Shown: one piece after another, positions 10,914 to 40,485 of the stretch | Layout: every line of letters starts with the position of its first letter | How positions within the stretch are numbered: the stretch's first letter is position 1 | Virus record (IMG/VR): IMGVR_UViG_3300022699_000206 | Location: 1 to 49,123 of that record | Reading direction: 5' to 3' (one strand) | From: a virus | Length of the DNA: 49,123 nucleotides | Translations under genes and position numbers: made by a program | The notes under the pieces: generated by a model | What the model was told of the DNA's origin: nothing | The model's input: the letters and a program-made list of their open reading frames with translations, nothing else | Databases searched by the model: none

Positions 10914-12766
10914 TGGCCTATGGTGTAACCCCCGAGGGTTTTGTTGCAAAGCGCCTTGAGGATATAAAAACCGAAATTGATGAGAAATTACGCGCTACTT
11001 TTGGCAAGGGTGTTGATTTAGATGAGCGCAGCCCGTTTGGGCAGTTTCGCGCTATATTCGCTGAGCGTGAGGCGGCAGTTTGGGAGCTTGCCGAGCAAGT
11101 GCATAACAGCCAATACCCGAGCACTGCCGAGGGGGCAAGCCTTGATAACGTAGTTTCCATTACGGGTACGGTACGTGAAACGCCAACAAAAAGTAGAGTT
11201 ATCGGGGCCATCCTATATGGAGTAGAGGGTACGGTTATACCCGCAGGCTCAACCGTTTCGGTTGACGGCAATCCCGACGCAAAATTTGATACGGATACTA
11301 ATGCTGAGATTGATGCGGGTGTAAGCTCAATTCAAAGGCTCACATTTCCAACCCTGCCTGAGGCCGGTACTTTTACACTTGATTTTGCTGGCGAGGTAAC
11401 CGCCGCCCTTAACTGGGATGCAACGGCGGCGCAAATACAAACCGCACTGGAAAACTTGGTTAATATAGGCCCCGGTAACGTTGATGCAACGGGTAACGTG
11501 CAAGATGGGCAAGTAGATATTGAATTCATAGGTACTCTAGCAGAAGAGCCCCAAACTGCGCTTACAATAAGCGCAAACGCCCTAACATCCTCAGAGGAAA
11601 CTGAAATAAGCTGCCTAGGGGATAGCTCGGGCTCATTAGACCGCACTACCTTTGTAATCAATGATCAAAATGGCTCTGTAGGTGTTTGGATTGATGTTGA
11701 TGATAGCGGCTCCGCTATTCCGCCTGATGCCTTGGCCGCTGATAGAGCCATTGAGGTTACGGGGGTATCCACCGATGATAGCCCCGGCAACGTTGCCGCC
11801 GCCGTTGCTGCGGCTCTTACTAACGACCCGGAGTTTTCAGCTACGGCGGTTGGCAGCGTTGTTACAGCCAATGATGCGGCCCAGGGCAGCCGAGCCGATG
11901 CGGCTGATGTGGATACAGGGTTTACCATAAGCACATCTAGCCAGGGCTATGATGCGGGCTCATTGCCCATAACCATATCCGAGCCCCAACCTGGTGCCCT
12001 GCCGCAAACCACTGTTAACTTGACTGCGCAAGAGGTGGGCAGCGTGCAAGCCCCAGCGGGTACGCTTACTGTTATTGAAACTCCGGTAACAGGCTGGGAT
12101 AGCATAACCAACCCATTGGATGCTGAGCTTGGAAAAGATTTAGAGGAGGATAACGAGTTAAAACTAAGGCGCTTGCAAGAGCTTGCTATTGCGGGCCGCG
12201 CTACCACTGAGGCGATAAGGGCCAAGTTACTTGAGCTTACGGGTGTTACCGCAGTAGTGGTTTTTGAAAACGATAGCGCTATTGTTGATGTGGATGGCCG
12301 CCCACCTAAATCAGTGGATATAGTGGTTGAAAACGGGGCTGAGGACGATATCGCGCAAGAGATTTTTGATACCGTTGCCGCAGGTATCGAAACGATAGGC
12401 GATATCTCAAAGGTTATAACGGATAGCCAGAATTTCACCCATATCATAAAGTTTTCACGGCCCAGCCCGGTTAATATTTGGGTTGAGTTTGATATATCAG
12501 TTGATAGCAATCGCTATCCCGCAGATGGGGATACAAGGGTTAAAAATGCGGTAGTAACATGGGGTGATGCATTAGGCATAGGCACTGATATTGTAGTGCA
12601 TGGCACTGATAGCTTAGAGGCAAGTATTGCCGATATACCGGGTATTACTGATGTGGAGATAAGAGTTGGTAAAACGGCCTCCCCTACATTGGATGATAAC
12701 ATAACTATAGCCCCGCGTGAGGTAAGCGCTTGGGATACTTCCAGGGTTGAGGTAAATCAGCTATGA
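10913..12766 (+). CDS. Baseplate J-like wedge protein with inserted beta domains
   Basis: 617 residues, much longer than the usual 300-400. The N-terminal J part (residues 1-130, with GVDLDERSPFGQFRAIFAER) and C-terminal J part (from about 350, with ELGKDLEEDNELKLRRLQEL and the GITDVEIRVGK region) bracket about 210 extra residues. The insert contains two beta domains: one with GTFTLDFAGEVTAALNWDAT, the other with GSVGVWIDVDDSG and GNVAAAVAAALTNDPEFSA. Such insertions decorate the outside of baseplates and may bind glycans. Starts on ATG at the end of the gp25-like gene. Confidence 0.85.
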   Translation: MAYGVTPEGFVAKRLEDIKTEIDEKLRATFGKGVDLDERSPFGQFRAIFAEREAAVWELAEQVHNSQYPSTAEGASLDNVVSITGTVRETPTKSRVIGAILYGVEGTVIPAGSTVSVDGNPDAKFDTDTNAEIDAGVSSIQRLTFPTLPEAGTFTLDFAGEVTAALNWDATAAQIQTALENLVNIGPGNVDATGNVQDGQVDIEFIGTLAEEPQTALTISANALTSSEETEISCLGDSSGSLDRTTFVINDQNGSVGVWIDVDDSGSAIPPDALAADRAIEVTGVSTDDSPGNVAAAVAAALTNDPEFSATAVGSVVTANDAAQGSRADAADVDTGFTISTSSQGYDAGSLPITISEPQPGALPQTTVNLTAQEVGSVQAPAGTLTVIETPVTGWDSITNPLDAELGKDLEEDNELKLRRLQELAIAGRATTEAIRAKLLELTGVTAVVVFENDSAIVDVDGRPPKSVDIVVENGAEDDIAQEIFDTVAAGIETIGDISKVITDSQNFTHIIKFSRPSPVNIWVEFDISVDSNRYPADGDTRVKNAVVTWGDALGIGTDIVVHGTDSLEASIADIPGITDVEIRVGKTASPTLDDNITIAPREVSAWDTSRVEVNQL

Positions 12767-13458
12767 CCGATATTGCCACCATTACAAACCACGTAGAGCG
12801 TGCGCTCAATCGCGTACTTACGCAGTACCGTGAAAAAGAGAGGCAAAACGCTTTTATCCAAGCTTTTGCTGAAGAGATGCAAAATATTGAGGATGTGCTT
12901 ATTGGGCTGATTGATGGCCGGGCACTTGATACTGCGGTAGGCGAACAACTTGATGGGCTTGGAGAGATAGTAGGCCAGGATAGGGGCGTTTTTGGGGATG
13001 ATTTTTACCGCATCCTTATTTTTGTAAAAATAGGCCAAAATACATCTCAAGGCGGCCCCGAGAAAATAATTAACATTTTCAAACTGCTTACTGAGGCCGA
13101 CCTAGTTCATTACATCAACCTCAATACCGGCTCTATCATGCTCGGTACTGATGTGGATATTTCAGAGGATAACATTGATTTTATATACCGCAATATGGAG
13201 CTTGTAGCCGCAGGTGGCGTGCGCATTGATCATATTGTTTGTTTTGATCCCGATGAGCCTTTTGCTTTTTCAGGGCCGAATACTACAAGCCCAGGCGAGG
13301 GATTTTCAGATATAACCGGAAGTACCGGAGGGAAATTTGCAGTGTTAAAACGTAGAGGCATAGCATTTAGTTTTGATGGCAATGATGTGGATGGGGGCGG
13401 CTTTGGCAGCCTTAAAGATCCCATTGTTGGGGGTAAATTTGTAGGTATAGGAGGTTAG
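12763..13458 (+). CDS. Baseplate protein, DUF2612-like (gpI role)
   Basis: 231 residues. The segment ALDTAVGEQLDGLGEIVGQD followed by FGDDFYRILIFVKIGQNTSQ and GGPEKIINIFKLLT is the signature of DUF2612 baseplate proteins, which link the J-like wedge to the fibres. The C-terminal 60 residues are Gly-rich (GGGFGSLKDPIVGGKFVGIG) and look like a short flexible or fibre-attachment tail. ATGA overlap with the J-like gene. Confidence 0.85.
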   Translation: MTDIATITNHVERALNRVLTQYREKERQNAFIQAFAEEMQNIEDVLIGLIDGRALDTAVGEQLDGLGEIVGQDRGVFGDDFYRILIFVKIGQNTSQGGPEKIINIFKLLTEADLVHYINLNTGSIMLGTDVDISEDNIDFIYRNMELVAAGGVRIDHIVCFDPDEPFAFSGPNTTSPGEGFSDITGSTGGKFAVLKRRGIAFSFDGNDVDGGGFGSLKDPIVGGKFVGIGG

Positions 13459-13461
13459 AAA

Positions 13462-14094
13462 ATGCCGATCCCTAAGCCAACCGCAAAAATGTCCTGGGGG
13501 GTTGGCAATCCTGATTTTGCAAATCGGGTAGTTGAGCCCTCCACGGCAAAAAAGCAGGCAGCATGGTTAGATGATGAGCGCCCACCCGCGCCAATAATGA
13601 ATTGGCTTTTTTGGATAGTCCAACAATGGTTGGATTATTTTGAAAACGTAAGTGATGAGTTTGAAACGCGTTATGATGCAATCATAGGCGCTGGGGCCGC
13701 TGCCACGCACGCAACATTACAAGATGCCGTTAATGATGTTTCCCTAGGTGCCGATGTATGGGTTAGGGTTGATGATGCGGCTACCATTGATAGCGCCATC
13801 AATCTAAATAAGGCCCGGTGGCGCATCGATTTTAAATCAACGGCGGTTTATACCAAGGGTGCGGGCGCTCCGGCAAACTGCCTGCAAATGGCCGCTGAGG
13901 GCATTATTGTTAACTATGGCCGTTTTGTAGGATGGACGGGCGGAGGAGATGCAGCCATTAAGCAAACGGTTGATGGCGAGTATTGCAGTGTTTTTGGCTC
14001 TCGTTTTGGGCCAGGCACTACTACTGAGGTTGATCAAAGCGCCGTGCCTGCCGGTAAAATAGGTCCGGTAACGGCCACCATTTCGGAGGTATAG
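13462..14094 (+). CDS. Tail fibre protein, baseplate-attachment part
   Basis: 210 residues. The N-terminus (IPKPTAKMSWGVGNPDF and PPAPIMNWLFWIVQQWLDYF) has the short Pro/Trp-rich pattern found at the attachment end of many fibre proteins. The rest resembles the start of a beta-helix. It has no signal peptide, unlike the following genes, and it stops before any tip domain, so it may be the anchor for separately encoded fibre parts. Confidence 0.65.
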   Translation: MPIPKPTAKMSWGVGNPDFANRVVEPSTAKKQAAWLDDERPPAPIMNWLFWIVQQWLDYFENVSDEFETRYDAIIGAGAAATHATLQDAVNDVSLGADVWVRVDDAATIDSAINLNKARWRIDFKSTAVYTKGAGAPANCLQMAAEGIIVNYGRFVGWTGGGDAAIKQTVDGEYCSVFGSRFGPGTTTEVDQSAVPAGKIGPVTATISEV

Positions 14095-14097
14095 GTA

Positions 14098-17000
14098 ATG
14101 GGATTTTTAAAGCGCCATAAATGGAAAACACTTTGTATAACCCTGGTGCTTATCGCTACCGTAGCCTTGGCCGCAGGGTATGAGCGTATACCTAAAGATA
14201 TACTTTTGCTTGGTACAGGCACTAGCGATAGCAAGATTATTGAATTTGATGTGGGTAACGGCTCGGCCAACCCTAAGATAAAAGGAAACTCAACCTCTCC
14301 TGCTATTGAATTTTCAGCAAATGGCATTGATTACCTACCGCTTGGCTCCGGGGGCTCCGGGGTGGGCATTCAGGCCCTTGCTAACGGAGATTTTGAGCTT
14401 GGTACTAACAATTGGAGCGCAAGCGCTGGCACGTTTCAAGAGGAAACAGGCGCAGGTGATGTGGGCAATGGAGCTAAAGCAGTAAGCTGGGATGCTACGG
14501 CGGCCAGTGATACGCTTACAAGTGATCAGGCCACGTTGCCGCTTGTTATCCAGGGCCAAAAATGCGTATCCTGGTTTTACTACAAAGGGGGTGATGCTAA
14601 TTTAACCGCTCAGGTTATTGATGGCAGCATTAGCGTATTGGCCTCTCAGGTGCTTGCTACTCAGGGGGCTTACACCCAAGTATACCTTTATTTTGATTGC
14701 CCCACGGGCGATACCGCAGCATTGCGCTTAACGGCTACCGGTGATGCGGCTACTGTCTACTTGGATGATGCTTTTTTGGGTGTAAGCATTACCGTACTTG
14801 AGGATTTAACAGATACGGATACCGCAGCAAAAGAGGATGGCCAAGCGCTCATATACGATAGTGCTAGTGAAAAATGGGTGCCGGGGGCCTCGGGTGATGC
14901 CTCATTTAAAGTGCAGGATGTAGCTGCGGATGGCTCAACCACTATCAAGGGCGGCTACCTTATCCTTGCAGATGGCCGAGAGCTTGCCACATATGATGGA
15001 TCGGGCACGGCCTCAACTGATTTTGGCGGTGATTTAGCCATTGATTTGGATAACCTTGAGGGCTCACCCGCTGATAACACTACCTATTACCTGTACATTG
15101 ATATCAACGCCCTTGCCGCGCAAATAACAACCTCTGATACGGGCCGCGCTCTCTACGGAGTGCAGGAGGCGCAATTGGTACTTAGCGCCGATGCCCCTGA
15201 TAGTGTAGCCCTCTCCCAACTCATACCCCTGGGGCTAGTGCGGCATACAACGGGTGGAGTTTGGGGTACAACGGCCTTTGCAACGCTTGCTTTTCGCAGG
15301 CACGATAAGCCCGTGCAATTTATAAACCCTCTTGTTTACTCCACATCTCAAGTGGTGGGTGCGGTGGGCACCAGTGGGCAAATCATGGCGGGGCATATCC
15401 TTACTGATCAATCATTTCCCGATACTGATTTAACGGGGGATATTGTTTATTGGAATTTAGCCGCTGATAGTAATGATGATAGTGTTAACGGCAAAAATTT
15501 AACAAATAATGGTACCGCGCCCTTTTCCGGTACCAATATTTTTGGAGCTACAACCTCTGCCGCTGATTTAAACGGTAGTACCCATTATTTTAGCTCTACC
15601 GATGCCTTTTTCAATCCCGGCAATGCCTCTTACACTGTAGGCGGTTGGTTTAAAATGGATGCTTGGGCATCAGGGGCTACTGAAGTACTTTTCTCAACGG
15701 CAGGCTCTACAAGTGATAGATCATTTGGAGTGTATAAGGCATCTACGGATATTCTTTATTGTTTGAGTACAAATACAGCCTCAAACTGGGATACTACCTT
15801 GCCCATGAGCCCGGATACCTCTGTATTGAGCGGATGGCAGCATATTGTTATAAGGTATGATGCTAGCGCCGATGTTTTTGCTTGTTTTATAAATGGTTTG
15901 GAGGTTACAAAAGCCAATGTTGCGGCTCAACGTGCGGCCTCCTCAGCCCAATTTAATATTGGAGCTTGGTACGCTACTCCGGCCAATTATATGGCCGGTG
16001 AGGTTGAGGATGTTTTCTTTTCAAATAGCGCCTTGGCTGATGAGGATGTGCGAAAACTCTATAGCGCTAAGCTATCCCTCAGTGCAATACAATTGGAGCC
16101 TGGCAATCAGCAATGGTTTGCCCAATACTCGCGCTCGGATGGCCTGCTACAAGGGGAGTTAAGCCCAGGTTGGATAGTGGATAAAAGAAAAGATGCCTTA
16201 TATTTTAACCTTGGCCTTGATGCGGCGGATACCGTGCGCATTGCCATGCGTGATATAGGATTTGGCTCCACCTCCGTTGCCAGTGCCAGACGTTATGATA
16301 GTGGATGGCAGGCGGCGGAGCAAAGCTATCCGCTTGCACATGGTTTGCCTATTTTCCCCACTGCGCAAAGCTTTTTCTATGATGATGCGGGCGCAATACG
16401 CAAATACCCCATAGGTCAATTTTGCAGTGTATCTGATACCCAGTTAAATTGCGAAATTGATAGCCTTATAACCATTGATGCAACGCATAAGTACCGTATC
16501 ATTTTGGCCTCGGGTGAGGAAACTATTACCTCAACTCTGCAAGAGGCATCCCCTACCCAAGCTGGCATTGTTTCAACTACAGCGCAATCATTTGCCGGTG
16601 AAAAGACATTTAACGCTGAGGTACAGGCGGTAAGTGGATTAGATGCTAGTGGGCAGGGGATTGTAGCAGGTAGTTTAACAACTGGGGATGTTACTGTAAC
16701 GGGTAGTTTAGGCATTGATCCCACATCTCTAAATGATATAGATTCTACTATACTGGGATTAAAACCTTATGTAAGCGGAACTACTTATAATGGCGGCAAT
16801 TCTCCCACTATCAGCGGTACGGATTATTTAAGCACCTACTATGGTATTTTTTATCCATATCGCACGCAATCAGGGGATTGGCGCTGTAGGTTTAATTTTG
16901 CAGTTAGTACTAATTCAAGCACCACATTTGCACCTGTAATAAATGGGATTACAGCAAAAAATGTGAGCGGATTTTTTCAGCCTGTAGCCGTTGGAGTAAA

Positions 17001-17133
17001 CGCTAATGCAGCTACACAAGGGCATTTTTCCCCGAATACCGGCACTATAATTACTTACTCTACGGCTAATGGAACGCAGTGGAGGTTTTCCGGAGATATA
17101 CTTTTAAACCAAAAGCCATCTTGGGCATATTAA
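14098..17133 (+). CDS. Large fibre/adhesin with signal-like N-terminus and LamG domain
   Basis: 1011 residues, the largest protein here. The N-terminus MGFLKRHKWKTLCITLVLIA followed by a hydrophobic stretch to ALAAG is a convincing signal peptide or membrane anchor. Then come a CBM-like beta domain at about 95-235 (NGDFELGTNNWSASAGTFQE ... VYLDDAFLG), a fibre-type stretch, a concanavalin-like LamG domain at about 440-660 (YTVGGWFKMDAWASGATEV; GWQHIVIRYDAS) and a C-terminal tip-like domain ending NQKPSWAY. Glycan binding is likely. Export by Sec would be unusual for a virion fibre; alternatively the hydrophobic segment is used during assembly. Confidence 0.82.
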   Translation: MGFLKRHKWKTLCITLVLIATVALAAGYERIPKDILLLGTGTSDSKIIEFDVGNGSANPKIKGNSTSPAIEFSANGIDYLPLGSGGSGVGIQALANGDFELGTNNWSASAGTFQEETGAGDVGNGAKAVSWDATAASDTLTSDQATLPLVIQGQKCVSWFYYKGGDANLTAQVIDGSISVLASQVLATQGAYTQVYLYFDCPTGDTAALRLTATGDAATVYLDDAFLGVSITVLEDLTDTDTAAKEDGQALIYDSASEKWVPGASGDASFKVQDVAADGSTTIKGGYLILADGRELATYDGSGTASTDFGGDLAIDLDNLEGSPADNTTYYLYIDINALAAQITTSDTGRALYGVQEAQLVLSADAPDSVALSQLIPLGLVRHTTGGVWGTTAFATLAFRRHDKPVQFINPLVYSTSQVVGAVGTSGQIMAGHILTDQSFPDTDLTGDIVYWNLAADSNDDSVNGKNLTNNGTAPFSGTNIFGATTSAADLNGSTHYFSSTDAFFNPGNASYTVGGWFKMDAWASGATEVLFSTAGSTSDRSFGVYKASTDILYCLSTNTASNWDTTLPMSPDTSVLSGWQHIVIRYDASADVFACFINGLEVTKANVAAQRAASSAQFNIGAWYATPANYMAGEVEDVFFSNSALADEDVRKLYSAKLSLSAIQLEPGNQQWFAQYSRSDGLLQGELSPGWIVDKRKDALYFNLGLDAADTVRIAMRDIGFGSTSVASARRYDSGWQAAEQSYPLAHGLPIFPTAQSFFYDDAGAIRKYPIGQFCSVSDTQLNCEIDSLITIDATHKYRIILASGEETITSTLQEASPTQAGIVSTTAQSFAGEKTFNAEVQAVSGLDASGQGIVAGSLTTGDVTVTGSLGIDPTSLNDIDSTILGLKPYVSGTTYNGGNSPTISGTDYLSTYYGIFYPYRTQSGDWRCRFNFAVSTNSSTTFAPVINGITAKNVSGFFQPVAVGVNANAATQGHFSPNTGTIITYSTANGTQWRFSGDILLNQKPSWAY

Positions 17134-17149
17134 TTAAAAGAGGCTAAAA

Positions 17150-17218
17150 ATGAAAAAACTTTTCCTATTACTTGCATTTACATGGTTTGCTGTGATTACT
17201 AACGGAGGTATAGCATGA
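17150..17218 (+). CDS. 22-residue signal-peptide-like small ORF
   Basis: A short ORF, MKKLFLLLAFTWFAVITNGG plus IA, that is essentially a signal peptide with no mature part. Its stop TGA overlaps the ATG of the next gene (ATGA at 17215), which is typical translational coupling. AGAGG lies 8 bases before its start. It may be a remnant of a lost exported protein, a leader, or a real membrane peptide. The next gene has its own signal peptide, so this is not its missing N-terminus. Confidence 0.5.
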   Translation: MKKLFLLLAFTWFAVITNGGIA

Positions 17219-17823
17219 GATACTTAATTTTACTTATTTTAGGCTTAACCAGTGCGCTTGCTTTGGCCCAAACCGATTGGCCTATTAACAATGGCAAGGG
17301 TAGTGGAGTAGAGCTTGCGGCACCTACGGTAACGGGTGCGGCCTCTTTTACCGGTAACCCAACTTTTTCAGGTACGCCATCATTTACAGGCACGCCCGAT
17401 TTTTCAAATGGAATACAAATAGGTGCTAGCGGAGATACTATAGATGAGTACGAAGAGGGCACTTTTACAGTACTTTGGAATTCAGCGGATTGGAGCGTAG
17501 AGCCTGGCACAGTTACCGTTGAATACGTGCGCATTGGAAAAATGGTTACCCTCTACATACCTGATTTTTCGGGCACATCTGATAGTGTATCCATGAGCAT
17601 AGGAGGTTTGCCCAATAGCATCGAAACTTTGCGCTCTCCAACTCCATTTAGCCAAAGTGTACTTGTAACCAATAACGGCTCAAATATAAGAGGGTGTATA
17701 GGAAACTCAACCTCAGGATCTTTTAATATAAGTTTTAAGCAAGGGGATTTATGCTCAAATTTTACAGCCTCAGGTACTAAAGGGCTGCCTTTGGGCATCT
17801 TTTACACTTACAAAATACAGTAA
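17215..17823 (+). CDS. Exported fibre-tip-like protein
   Basis: 202 residues with a clear Sec signal peptide: MRYLILLILGLTSALALA, cleavage expected after ALA. The mature part starts with short Thr/Gly/Phe repeats (GNPTFSGTPSFTGTPDFSNG), then DTIDEYEEGTFTVLW and VEYVRIGKMVTLYI, which are hallmarks of fibre tip domains where a triple-stranded stalk leads to a receptor-binding head. A virion tip does not need export, so the signal peptide is the surprise. GGAGG upstream of the start. Confidence 0.8.
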   Translation: MRYLILLILGLTSALALAQTDWPINNGKGSGVELAAPTVTGAASFTGNPTFSGTPSFTGTPDFSNGIQIGASGDTIDEYEEGTFTVLWNSADWSVEPGTVTVEYVRIGKMVTLYIPDFSGTSDSVSMSIGGLPNSIETLRSPTPFSQSVLVTNNGSNIRGCIGNSTSGSFNISFKQGDLCSNFTASGTKGLPLGIFYTYKIQ

Positions 17824-17841
17824 TCTAAAAGGGGCTAAAAA

Positions 17842-18396
17842 ATGAAAAAAATATTTTTACTTATCGTCTTAACAGCATTGGCCTGGGGCAGCTATACCTT
17901 TAGCACCTCAACCAATGTAAACCAACTCTACTGCGCCGCAGATGGCTGCACCGCTGTAGTGCCAGGCGGGGAAAATGTGCATTTGCAGCCCGGCAATGAT
18001 TGGGTACGCTACACTCCTACGGGCAGTTGGGTGAGTAATACGGATTACTACGGACGTTGGCGGCAAAATGGGCCTAACATGGATGTAGAGGTTAGGGTTG
18101 TTACATCAGGTGCGCCCACGGCAACAATTTTAACAGTAAATTTACCCACTGGTTATGAGATTGACGATACAAAACTACTGTATTCCGGCAATCAGAGAGT
18201 AGGCGCGGGCCTAATAGAAGACCCTGGAAATGATGATTACCCGGCCTTTATTTTACGAGCCCCAAGTAATGTTTTAAGAGTTAGCTTTATTGCGGGGGAT
18301 GGCTCAATTGATCCCGTTACCCAAGCCGCCCCCATGACATGGGCCTCAGGTGATTTTGTTATCGTTACCTTTAGCGTACCTATTAAGGGTTGGTAA
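17842..18396 (+). CDS. Exported fibre-tip-like protein, second type
   Basis: 184 residues with a signal peptide (MKKIFLLIVLTALAWG). The mature part contains YYGRWRQNGPNMDVEVRVV, then LTVNLPTGYEIDDTKLL and a C-terminus GDFVIVTFSVPIKGW, the pattern of the C-terminal head domain of many phage fibres. It is not the same fold family as the previous gene at sequence level. It follows the previous gene by 18 bases, and its stop shares bases with the next start (TAATG). Confidence 0.78.
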   Translation: MKKIFLLIVLTALAWGSYTFSTSTNVNQLYCAADGCTAVVPGGENVHLQPGNDWVRYTPTGSWVSNTDYYGRWRQNGPNMDVEVRVVTSGAPTATILTVNLPTGYEIDDTKLLYSGNQRVGAGLIEDPGNDDYPAFILRAPSNVLRVSFIAGDGSIDPVTQAAPMTWASGDFVIVTFSVPIKGW

Positions 18397-19487
18397 TGAA
18401 AAAATTTGCTATCATTTTTTTGCTGCTAACGGCCTGCGATTGGTTTAGCCCTCGGGATGCCACGGAGCCCGATCCCGATGAGGCCCCTGATTTACTCACT
18501 GCGGCCCGTATAGCGCAAAATGAGCGCCTAGCCGCCACTGCGGGAATAATGGCCGCGCACCCCTCGGGTTGGATAGCTCCTAACTCATGTGATGGGGCGC
18601 TTTGGAGCTACAAAACCGCCGCAGCCACATGCCCAGGCTCTTTTAACCCCCAGGCCAGCGAATTTGAGCCCGGCAGATATGGCCGCCGCCCTCCGCCGCC
18701 GTGCTGGGATGGGCAGGATAACGGCAGCCCCACCACATGGAGCGGTGATATGGGCAAGGGCCTTTTCACCTACGCATGGCGCTGTAAGCGCCTGGATATG
18801 GCTGAGGAGCACGCAGCCTATGGCGAGGCCAATAACTGGGTAATGGGCGAGGGAGAGCCCGGAGCCGTGCTTAGTCGGGCCGTATACCGCCCTACAATGG
18901 TGGGGCTCCTCTACCGGGTAATCCATGCCCTAGGCGGAGAGGACAACCCAAAGCGCCTGGTGCCCCAGGTGTTTTCAGGGGGGCTCACGGATTTTGAGGC
19001 GCATTTGCAAATGCTCACCATTGCCTTGATGGGCGAGATGGGCGAGGCCACGGGTGAGGCTGATGCCGTGCCCGCACCGCCGCCCGAGGGGGCCGAGTAC
19101 GTTTTTTTGGCCCCTAATGAAAACAATGGGTTACAATTAGCAAAAGCCCCCGAAAATGGCCCAAAAAGCAGGGTTTTTGATGCAAATACGCCCCCTTTTG
19201 AGGGCCTTTTGCTTGCTGATGGCGGGCTCAGGCTACTTGATATCAATGAAACCATGTTTAAGCGGATTGAGGAGCATTACCAACGCGATAGCGCTGATCC
19301 CTTGTTTTCCGCCCTGCATGCCATCTATTCAGGCGATTATACGCCCGCCCTGATGCTTTGCGCACGGCCTTACACCCCTGGCATGTACCTTGGGGAGTAC
19401 GTGCGCTGCGCCGATCAAAAGGGCTGCGAGCTTGGCCATTTCATCCATGCGTGCGATATGGTGCTTAGGAGGTATCCCAGTGGTTGA
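18396..19487 (+). CDS. Secreted lipoprotein of unknown function
   Basis: 363 residues starting MKKFAIIFLLLTACDWFSPR: a lipoprotein signal with lipobox LTAC and Asp at +2, a residue that in E. coli keeps lipoproteins in the inner membrane. The mature protein has many Cys (C at the CWDGQDNG, WRCKRLD, LMLCARP, VRCADQKGCELG segments), suggesting disulphides in the periplasm. I recognise no enzyme motif. The ATG at 18396 is chosen over the upstream TTG because of its fit to the signal peptide and the TAATG overlap. It ends the run of exported proteins just before the lysis region; superinfection exclusion or a lysis role are guesses. Confidence 0.8.
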   Translation: MKKFAIIFLLLTACDWFSPRDATEPDPDEAPDLLTAARIAQNERLAATAGIMAAHPSGWIAPNSCDGALWSYKTAAATCPGSFNPQASEFEPGRYGRRPPPPCWDGQDNGSPTTWSGDMGKGLFTYAWRCKRLDMAEEHAAYGEANNWVMGEGEPGAVLSRAVYRPTMVGLLYRVIHALGGEDNPKRLVPQVFSGGLTDFEAHLQMLTIALMGEMGEATGEADAVPAPPPEGAEYVFLAPNENNGLQLAKAPENGPKSRVFDANTPPFEGLLLADGGLRLLDINETMFKRIEEHYQRDSADPLFSALHAIYSGDYTPALMLCARPYTPGMYLGEYVRCADQKGCELGHFIHACDMVLRRYPSG

Positions 19488-19911: not shown

Positions 19912-20269
19912 TGAGGCTTATGGCGTTGAGCAAATGAAAAAGGTTTTAGATGTAATCATTGAGGGCGGAAACGTTGCCCCCAAAGTGCATGCGGCTACCA
20001 ACGTGGTAGGAAAAATTACAGCCCTGGTGCCCCTGGCCGATGAGTTGGCTGCCCTTGTTACCTTGCGCCCCACGCTCCTGAAAAAGGAATGGCATGATTT
20101 ATCAGATGAGGAAAAGGCTGAGCTTAAAACCCATGTCAAGGCGAAATTTGATCTTGAGGATGATGTACTTGAGGCTAAGGTTGAGGCTGGGTTTGAATTG
20201 GTAAATGAGGCGGTTGATTTGGTTGAAAAGGCCGTGGCCTACGTGCAAGCACTTAAAGGGGGTAAATAA
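19904..20269 (+). CDS. Small helical protein of the lysis region
   Basis: 121 residues, acidic and helical (SDEEKAELKTHVKAKFDLED, EAVDLVEKAVAYVQALKGGK). No membrane segment. ATG 19904 is preferred to 19901 because it puts the AGGAGG seven bases away. Family unknown to me. It overlaps the previous gene by 8 bases and the next ATG shares its stop (TAATG), so it is part of the lysis transcript. Confidence 0.72.
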   Translation: MSNEAYGVEQMKKVLDVIIEGGNVAPKVHAATNVVGKITALVPLADELAALVTLRPTLLKKEWHDLSDEEKAELKTHVKAKFDLEDDVLEAKVEAGFELVNEAVDLVEKAVAYVQALKGGK

Positions 20270-20481
20270 TGAGCGGTTGGATTACACTACTCACCGCTGT
20301 TTTTTCCTTTGGGGCTCAACTTTTTAAGTACCTAAGGGAGAGAGATGAGGCTGATAGGCTATGTGCTGAAAAATTGAGGAGGGCAAAAGATGCCATCAAG
20401 AGCGCAAGGGTTACAAAAGATACTGGCGAATTGGAGCGTGCTTTTACTGATTTGGGGCTTACTTCTAGCAAGCCTGCATAG
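20269..20481 (+). CDS. Small N-terminally hydrophobic protein, possible i-spanin or holin
   Basis: 70 residues: SGWITLLTAVFSFGAQLFKY is a possible short membrane segment, followed by a charged helix (RERDEADRLCAEKLRRAKDA). The next gene starts inside it in another frame at 20390. An inner-membrane protein whose end overlaps a lipoprotein gene is the layout of Rz/Rz1 spanin pairs, but the present protein is short for an i-spanin. A small holin is the alternative. Confidence 0.6.
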   Translation: MSGWITLLTAVFSFGAQLFKYLRERDEADRLCAEKLRRAKDAIKSARVTKDTGELERAFTDLGLTSSKPA

Positions 20482-20737
20482 CTGCCTTACCGATAAAAAA
20501 GAGGCGCGTGAGCTTTACGCCCCCACCATTTATGCAGGGGATAGCTCTGAGGCGGCGGCAGTGCGGGCGCAGTCAACCGAAAAGATTGCCTGCGATGATG
20601 CCAGGTTTGATGAGATGTTTTGCTTGTTTGATAGAGATATGCACATGCTCATAGAGCACTGCCTTGAAAAGCAAGAGGCCGCCCATACCTGGGAGGTGTT
20701 TAAGGAAAATGAAAAGGACGCCCCAAGCCCCAAGTAA
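20390..20737 (+). CDS. Possible o-spanin-like lipoprotein overlapping the previous gene
   Basis: 115 residues, read in a different frame from 20269-20481 over 92 bases. AGGAGG lies eight bases before the ATG. The N-terminus has a hydrophobic stretch (WSVLLLIWGLLLASLHSC) ending in LHSC, an imperfect lipobox since His is unusual at that position. The mature part is acidic and has further Cys. If the lipobox works this would be the outer-membrane partner of a spanin pair; otherwise it is a membrane-anchored periplasmic protein. Confidence 0.6.
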   Translation: MPSRAQGLQKILANWSVLLLIWGLLLASLHSCLTDKKEARELYAPTIYAGDSSEAAAVRAQSTEKIACDDARFDEMFCLFDRDMHMLIEHCLEKQEAAHTWEVFKENEKDAPSPK

Positions 20738-22737: not shown

Positions 22738-23316
22738 ATGATTGATATCAACAAAGCATTTGAATTGCCCAAGCACGGTGTGCTTATAAGCCAAGATGGA
22801 GTAAATCGAGTGCTTATAAGCTCAGATGATGCCGCGCCTACCCATGACGCCCCTATAGGCTCGCTACATTTTCAATCTAACGGTGATCGTTGGAGCAAGG
22901 CATATGCAGGCTCAGGCTCGGATAAGTGGGTACTTGATGGGGTGGGCAGCCCCGTTGTAACGCAAACTGCGGATTTTGGCGGCAAGGGCCGCTTAAGAAA
23001 CGCATACCTTAGCCGAGCGGGTAACGTGCCATCTAATATAGTAGGCATACCCATGGTGCTAAGCGGCGGTACTTTGCGCACTATATCCGTAGCAAATGAG
23101 GATACTACAACCTTTTCCATTGCCGTTTACGAGCATGATGGCAATGAGCTTAATGAAACGCTACTTTATACCGTGGCGGTAACATCAGATTATAAAAAAA
23201 CTATTGGCGGGCTCAGCATACCGGTTACCTCGGGTAAACAGTTATCAGCCAAGGTTGTATCGGGATCGGCTACAAATCCAGGATGTACGGTAGCATTAAA
23301 AGGGCTTAGTGTATGA
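22738..23316 (+). CDS. Tail fibre / tip protein related to the preceding one
   Basis: 192 residues. The N-terminal 70 residues repeat the layout of the previous fibre protein (HGVLISQDGVNRVLISSDDA, then DAPIGSLHFQSNGDRW and KWVLDGVG). The C-terminal half is one beta sandwich (TTFSIAVYEHDGNELNETLL). No signal peptide. No clear Shine-Dalgarno is visible before the ATG, which lies just after a hairpin. The stop overlaps the next start by four bases. Confidence 0.7.
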   Translation: MIDINKAFELPKHGVLISQDGVNRVLISSDDAAPTHDAPIGSLHFQSNGDRWSKAYAGSGSDKWVLDGVGSPVVTQTADFGGKGRLRNAYLSRAGNVPSNIVGIPMVLSGGTLRTISVANEDTTTFSIAVYEHDGNELNETLLYTVAVTSDYKKTIGGLSIPVTSGKQLSAKVVSGSATNPGCTVALKGLSV

Positions 23317-39927: not shown

Positions 39928-39963
39928 TTAAACGGTATTTCAAAACAAAGCATGAGGTTTAAA

Positions 39964-40485
39964 ATGAAACACGTAAGCATCGCAATCATCAGTGTTTTTA
40001 CCGCATTAGCTACTTGGCTTTTCGCAATCGTGGCCCTGGTATCCGTTTGGGCGCTCCTCTCCTCTTGCGGCACCATTGAGATACCAAAATCCGAAGTAAA
40101 ACAGGCTGAGGAGCCGGAAAACAGCGCGGAGGAGCCTGCGGGCGAGCCCTCCGAGCCTGATGTATCTGTTTCAGTTGACGTTGATATACAGGTAACTGTA
40201 AATGTCAAGGGAGAAATGGATGCCGATCCCATTTTCATTACAAAACTCCACCCCTGGGGCCAGGCGGTTGATGCTTGCCCTGAGGGCTATATATTGGCTA
40301 CCCGCTCTGAGGCCATTGAGCTTGTAGATAGCGGCTATTTGGATGATTTTATGGGCGATACTGCGGGTGTTTGGACGGCCACGGAGGATGCGAGCCTTGA
40401 GGGTTTGGCATGGGTTGTAACGCTCAATCATCATTTTGCTGCCCCAAAATCTCTTGATTTTAATGCCCTTTGTATGGCTTACTAG
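39964..40485 (+). CDS. Early lipoprotein, possible superinfection exclusion factor
   Basis: 173 residues from ATG 39964 (GAGG upstream). A long hydrophobic signal (AIISVFTALATWLFAIVALV) ends in lipobox LSSC followed by Gly. A Glu/Pro-rich spacer follows, then VSVSVDVDIQVTVNV and a C-terminal domain that starts DACPEGYILATRSEAIEL, similar in layout to FISUMP/DUF1566-type surface lipoprotein domains. Early-expressed phage lipoproteins often block receptors or DNA entry of later phages, but this role is inference here. Confidence 0.75.
   Translation: MKHVSIAIISVFTALATWLFAIVALVSVWALLSSCGTIEIPKSEVKQAEEPENSAEEPAGEPSEPDVSVSVDVDIQVTVNVKGEMDADPIFITKLHPWGQAVDACPEGYILATRSEAIELVDSGYLDDFMGDTAGVWTATEDASLEGLAWVVTLNHHFAAPKSLDFNALCMAY

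Follow-up and report, generated by a model that had tools for sequence, protein, structure and literature searches.

Assembly of tailed phages is considered to take place in the cytoplasm, and the question raised by the locus described here is why a phage should place export signals on proteins that look like the tips of tail fibres. The locus lies in IMG/VR virus record IMGVR_UViG_3300022699_000206, which was analysed whole (49,123 bases, hereafter the window) and may itself be a fragment of a genome. It is a myovirus, with genes for a tail sheath, a tape measure, baseplate J, a baseplate protein of the DUF2612 type, a helicase and a PolA-like polymerase. Behind the baseplate genes, four consecutive genes start with predicted Sec or lipoprotein signals. 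The reading tentatively favoured here, from sequence comparison, is that the locus forms a conserved module for export, and that its exported proteins are the phage's own distal receptor-binding tips, which would be docked on the virion at lysis.

Export signals in the tail operon

Signal peptides (SPs) were identified with a home-made rule-based scorer, whose scores are crude, and by reading of the sequences; the criteria were a basic n-region, a hydrophobic core and an AxA-type c-region. The locus, all of it on the plus strand, is anchored by the conserved DUF2612 baseplate gene (12763..13458; Pfam DUF2612, 1.5e-12), followed by the gene of a 210-aa SP-less protein with a conserved attachment-type N-terminus, probably a baseplate-attachment or adaptor protein (13462..14094). 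The next gene (14098..17133) encodes a putative exported fibre made of an SP (residues 1-26, encoded by 14098..14175), an N-domain (27-60), a carbohydrate-binding module (CBM; about 91-231), a LamG-like part and a variable C-terminal tip. Its N-terminus, MGFLKRHKWKTLCITLVLIATVALAA followed by GYER, is a Sec signal with an AxA end (ATVALAA before GYER). Two small, probably exported tip proteins come next: 17215..17823, whose SP (MRYLILLILGLTSALALA followed by QTDW) precedes a repeat stalk, an EYEEGTF...YVRIG tip and two cysteines, and 17842..18396 (MKKIFLLIVLTALAWGS followed by YTF). The run ends with a cysteine-rich helical lipoprotein (18396..19487) that starts with MKKFAIIFLLLTA followed by CDWF and has a lipobox.

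The initial annotation had read Sec or lipoprotein signals at the start of these four genes and of a short open reading frame (ORF) at 17150, and this reading stands: all five ORFs are present, each with a ribosome-binding site (RBS). Start-site error was rejected as a source of the signal-like starts, as strong RBSs lie directly upstream. Of the 69 genes of the window, the scorer marked eight as positive, while shuffled proteins led to an expectation of 1.75; the run 14098-18396 supplies five of these eight, and another positive, 28454, is likely false. From their sequences, export of the products of this run is very likely.

The short ORF (17150..17218), whose whole 22-aa product is MKKLFLLLAFTWFAVITNGGIA, overlaps the start of 17215 and holds the RBS of that gene in its 3' end. 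It shares 70% identity over 37 nt with the start of the 17842 gene and is probably a duplicated or remnant start or leader; it may have been left behind when tip genes were swapped at the SP leader.

A signal peptide behind the attachment gene is a family trait

Relatives were searched in IMG/VR with the attachment and baseplate proteins, two queries that do not depend on any SP, and separately with the fibre N-terminus. The SP-independent queries yielded 12 distinct diverged relatives and the fibre N-terminus one more, which makes 14 lineages with the window. Near-duplicate pairs (L018/L019, L016/L017, L020/L021 and L023/L024) were counted once, and alignments are shallow throughout. L011 was left out of the counts as a distant match: on this contig, an SP protein (L011:6133-6681) is encoded about 200 nt beyond an attachment-type gene, and both its adjacency and its kinship are doubtful.

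The attachment proteins of the 12 SP-independent relatives share 28-67% identity with the 13462 product. The gene located 1-10 nt after the attachment gene carries an SP in the window, in 12/12 of these relatives and in the one found via its signal, and the attachment gene itself carries one in none of the 14 lineages. Seven outgroup phages that have a related baseplate gene were compared for this slot, and not one of their 18 genes there has an SP. Several of these phages, MW202455, D6E and Pseudomonas phage vB_PsaM_M1, have fibres that resemble the window's in their slot after a DUF2612-like baseplate gene and in a similar attachment-type N-terminus, but in which attachment-type start and tip form one uninterrupted chain without SP. 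Within the family, L024 has its fibre split into two proteins, each with its own signal, and the slot of L010 is occupied by an exported tail fibre that bears an S74 chaperone. By scorer and reading, the Sec-type pattern (basic start, hydrophobic core, AxA end) is kept in all 14 lineages, although the fibre signal shows only 35% identity versus 57% for the N-domain behind the AxA site, whose consensus is AAG-[YF]-ER-[IV]-xxD-xLxLGTGTSxDKxIEFD. A predicted SP on the gene after the attachment gene is a family trait.

Signals are also found on other proteins of the family. The window gene 22738-23316 has no SP, whereas its homologue L024:14195-14839 carries one (MSYKIKFLFLMFLAGVPSGASA), so that export signals seem to come and go on other family proteins. 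L009:13899-14699 encodes a predicted exported protein whose C-terminal part matches the head decoration family phrog_3018 (9e-14), i.e. a further virion-type domain behind an SP.

Position of the diversity

Identities were compared among the eight closest phages, the figures for the fibre remainder and the last 120 residues being drawn from four complete fibres. The attachment protein (57% identity, 60% in its C-terminal 40 aa) is as conserved as the baseplate proteins (58-59%). The exported fibre shows 57-61% identity in its N-domain versus 8% in the remainder and less than 1% in the last 120 residues. Since the attachment protein and the fibre N-domain evolve at the baseplate rate and the rest of the fibre is mosaic, receptor-type diversity appears to reside only in the exported proteins. 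The exported-fibre N-domain, which occurs in tandem repeats in several relatives, thus behaves in these alignments like a docking domain. No resemblance was found between exported proteins and SP-less proteins of their own genome.

Domains of the predicted exported proteins and of the probable adaptor

The initial annotation had described 13462 as a protein with an attachment-type N-terminus and no signal, which agrees with the lack of SP in all 14 attachment genes and with the conservation in relatives of its motif KPT..W...VVEPS..KK...ERPP; the protein also has a weak match to phrog_7389. The attachment-type N-terminus is not in the same chain as the tip: it sits in the separate SP-less 13462, and the N-domain of the exported fibre is a different one. 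The position in the tail operon and the fibre or binding domains of the exported proteins are seen in the synteny, the CBM fold of 14098 and the S74 domain of L010.

The AlphaFold model of the CBM region of 14098 (model residues 65-205) has a predicted local distance difference test (pLDDT) score mostly of 80-94. The CBM matches the porphyran-binding CBM 8xmz (Z 16.2, root-mean-square deviation 2.1 over 131 residues), and the same fold is present in the tailspikes CBA120 TSP4 and K2-2. The model thus supports a CBM beta-sandwich fold, a shared fold being no proof of sugar binding. The receptor- or glycan-binding character that had been proposed for the exported proteins is supported; as for the LamG domain proposed together with it, the model has medium-low confidence and Pfam is silent, and the domain is plausible from sequence. 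The LamG-like region of 14098 is shared with L006 and L007, and the tip of 14098 is unique. Neither 14098 nor the fibres of L016 and L018 matched any of 50,697 phage records. In the PDB, sequence searches with 14098, the lipoprotein profile and L010 were without result, and those with the small exported protein of L009 produced insignificant matches only.

Of the run of fibre-tip-like proteins announced by the initial annotation, 14098, 17215 and 17842 remain. The 18396 product was rejected as a fibre tip, as it is a cysteine-rich lipoprotein with homologues in three relatives (L016, L003 and L015). It has a lipobox, LTAC, and eight mature cysteines beyond the lipidated one; in the form LLTA-C, the lipobox cysteine is invariant in the four homologues. 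For this 363-aa protein, no similarity was detected in PDB or Pfam, and its AlphaFold model (pLDDT 38) is unusable.

Cysteine content

Cysteine makes up 1.22% of 20 exported proteins versus 0.32% of 43 SP-less tail or baseplate proteins of the same phages (Mann-Whitney p 3e-5), and 13 of the 17 exported proteins with any cysteine have an even number (p 0.025); as the proteins are related, these p-values overstate independence. Two cysteines of the carbohydrate-binding domain are invariant. The enrichment and the parity fit proteins predicted to fold in a disulfide-forming compartment.

Link to Bdellovibrio phages and probable host

A link to a cultured phage, missed by the initial annotation as was the distal-fibre reading, is provided by phi1422, a lytic Bdellovibrio myophage (PMC3391216). 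Its genome (JQ177062) has 3 SP-positive coding sequences out of 76 (gp01, gp68 and gp75), two of which are fibre-like. The gp68 gene encodes an SP and starts 1 nt after the SP-less tail fibre gene gp67; domains of gp68 are homologous to 17842 (pairwise E 7e-10; E 5e-8 in a 201-protein set). Both gp68 and gp75, annotated as hypothetical proteins only, resemble the exported proteins of the window by their SP and even cysteine counts (eight and two), and gp68 also by its slot after an SP-less fibre and by a CBM-like region (profile match, P 1e-4). Unlike in the window, gp68 is a single 614-aa chain rather than several proteins, and no LGTGTS N-domain was recognised in it. Another homologue of 17842, a 43%-identical SP protein with four cysteines, is found in L040, a temperate virus contig with an integrase. 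This contig also encodes a lipoprotein (L040:10418-11113) homologous to that of L010 (L010:12185-12925; 36%, E 1e-44), and the exported set therefore seems to cross virus types.

Scans of genome contigs with the baseplate profile and the fibre N-domain matched neither bacteria nor prophages, and the host assignment is therefore based on phi1422. Terminase, primase, sheath and baseplate J were rejected as host markers because the hosts to which they point are too many to be diagnostic. Neither the window nor its myovirus relatives contain an integrase of family PF00589. The family probably consists of lytic-type myoviruses that infect Bdellovibrio or related predators, and the window would share such a host.

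Bdellovibrio bacteriovorus itself encodes 21 SP-bearing, phage-fibre-like mosaic adhesive trimeric (MAT) proteins with a constant N-domain of roughly 130 aa and swapped tips of S74 and non-S74 types (PMC10769870). The MAT fibres are like the exported phage fibres in plan: an SP, a constant N-domain, swapped phage-like tips with or without S74 and a Gram-negative predator setting. The likeness is one of plan; MAT fibres are encoded by bacterial genes and serve prey recognition, whereas those of the window are encoded by phage genes in a tail operon.

A model of late docking and its alternatives

Taken together, these features allow the following scenario to be drawn. An ancestral fibre, a single chain that held both the attachment domain and the tip, would have been split into the short cytoplasmic adaptor 13462 and the tip proteins. 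The tips, made late, would pass through Sec, be cleaved, fold with disulfides in the periplasm and be kept there until lysis. Once the inner membrane opens, they would dock on the 13462 adaptor via the N-domain (ERIxKDxLxLGTGTSxDKxIEFD...). The analysis shows that the signals are conserved, that the exported proteins are biased towards cysteine, that the gene order is kept, where the diversity lies and that there is a link to phi1422; that the proteins are in fact exported, which host is infected, in which direction the split went and, most of all, that docking occurs are inferred from this. Late docking is favoured because of the strict synteny, the fused arrangement found elsewhere, the conserved N-domain and the absence of any other variable binding protein. 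A precedent for attachment at a late stage is that long tail fibres of T4 are able to attach to fibreless particles (PMC3004832). With slightly more reserve, the sequences may point to a whole family of tailed phages that finishes disulfide-bonded fibre tips in the periplasm and joins them to finished virions at lysis through an N-domain/adaptor pair. Several points weigh against this. We know of no tailed phage whose fibre tips are added from the periplasm, and the open-access literature on SPs in tail fibres yielded no precedent, although such an absence is no proof. The small exported tips 17215 and 17842 lack the N-domain, a lipoprotein (18396) accompanies the export module, late docking would suffer from dilution at lysis, and the host of the window is deduced from phi1422.

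The lipoprotein and the small tips without docking domain would fit a role in which the exported proteins bind surface glycans of the host itself, be it in the periplasm, at the outer membrane or on cell debris, and so stop superinfection or the loss of progeny to infected or lysed cells. Such a role, which appears rather unlikely, agrees with the presence of export signals and a lipoprotein in one late operon and with the carbohydrate-binding fold of 14098; receptor-blocking phage lipoproteins of the T5 Llp type are known (PMC9586334). The 18396 product is like these superinfection-exclusion proteins in being a phage-encoded lipoprotein with an export signal, but differs by its 363 aa, its many cysteines and its lack of detected similarity to PDB or Pfam entries. 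Against the decoy function proposed by the initial annotation, none of the exported domains is homologous to an SP-less protein of its own genome, a relation that might be expected of a simple receptor decoy; the receptor of the virion would have to be hit by an unrelated domain. Moreover, if the tips were only decoys, the sole binding protein left on the virion (13462) would be unusually conserved, and their exit through the outer membrane would be unexplained. Less probable still is that the fibres, like MAT proteins, alter predation by giving an infected predator extra fibres that bind prey or prey debris. The common plan of SP-bearing MAT proteins and exported phage fibres, S74 form included (PMC10769870), and the infection of Bdellovibrio by phi1422 speak for it; the genes, however, sit between baseplate and lysis genes and are presumably expressed late, no integrase occurs in the window or its myovirus relatives, and the predator host of the window is itself deduced. 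It is very improbable that export is lacking altogether and that the hydrophobic starts stay uncleaved and serve ordinary virion fibres as membrane or assembly devices, as the initial annotation had also considered. The genes do adjoin tail genes, and cleavage is a prediction. Against this explanation stand the AxA ends and following residues, which are kept although the remainder of the signal drifts, the enriched and paired cysteines of the mature proteins, the separate signal on each split tip protein in L024 and the window, and the true lipobox of 18396.

Other genes of the window

A second lipoprotein-like gene (39952-40485), far from the tail operon, encodes two hydrophobic stretches followed by a possible lipobox, LLSSC. 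Beside the amidase gene (20664), two overlapping out-of-frame genes (20269-20481 and 20390-20737), the second encoding a hydrophobic start and four cysteines, may form a spanin-like pair.

Implications

A family-wide SP on a tip gene would mean either completion of part of the virion outside the cytoplasm or export of diverse receptor-like lectins to manage adsorption. As phi1422 is cultured, the question is open to direct testing. If the tips are indeed completed in the periplasm, the tail of these phages would be finished in another compartment than the one in which it is started. Bdellovibrio being a predator that uses its own exported phage-like fibres, there may also be a route for fibres between virus and predator.

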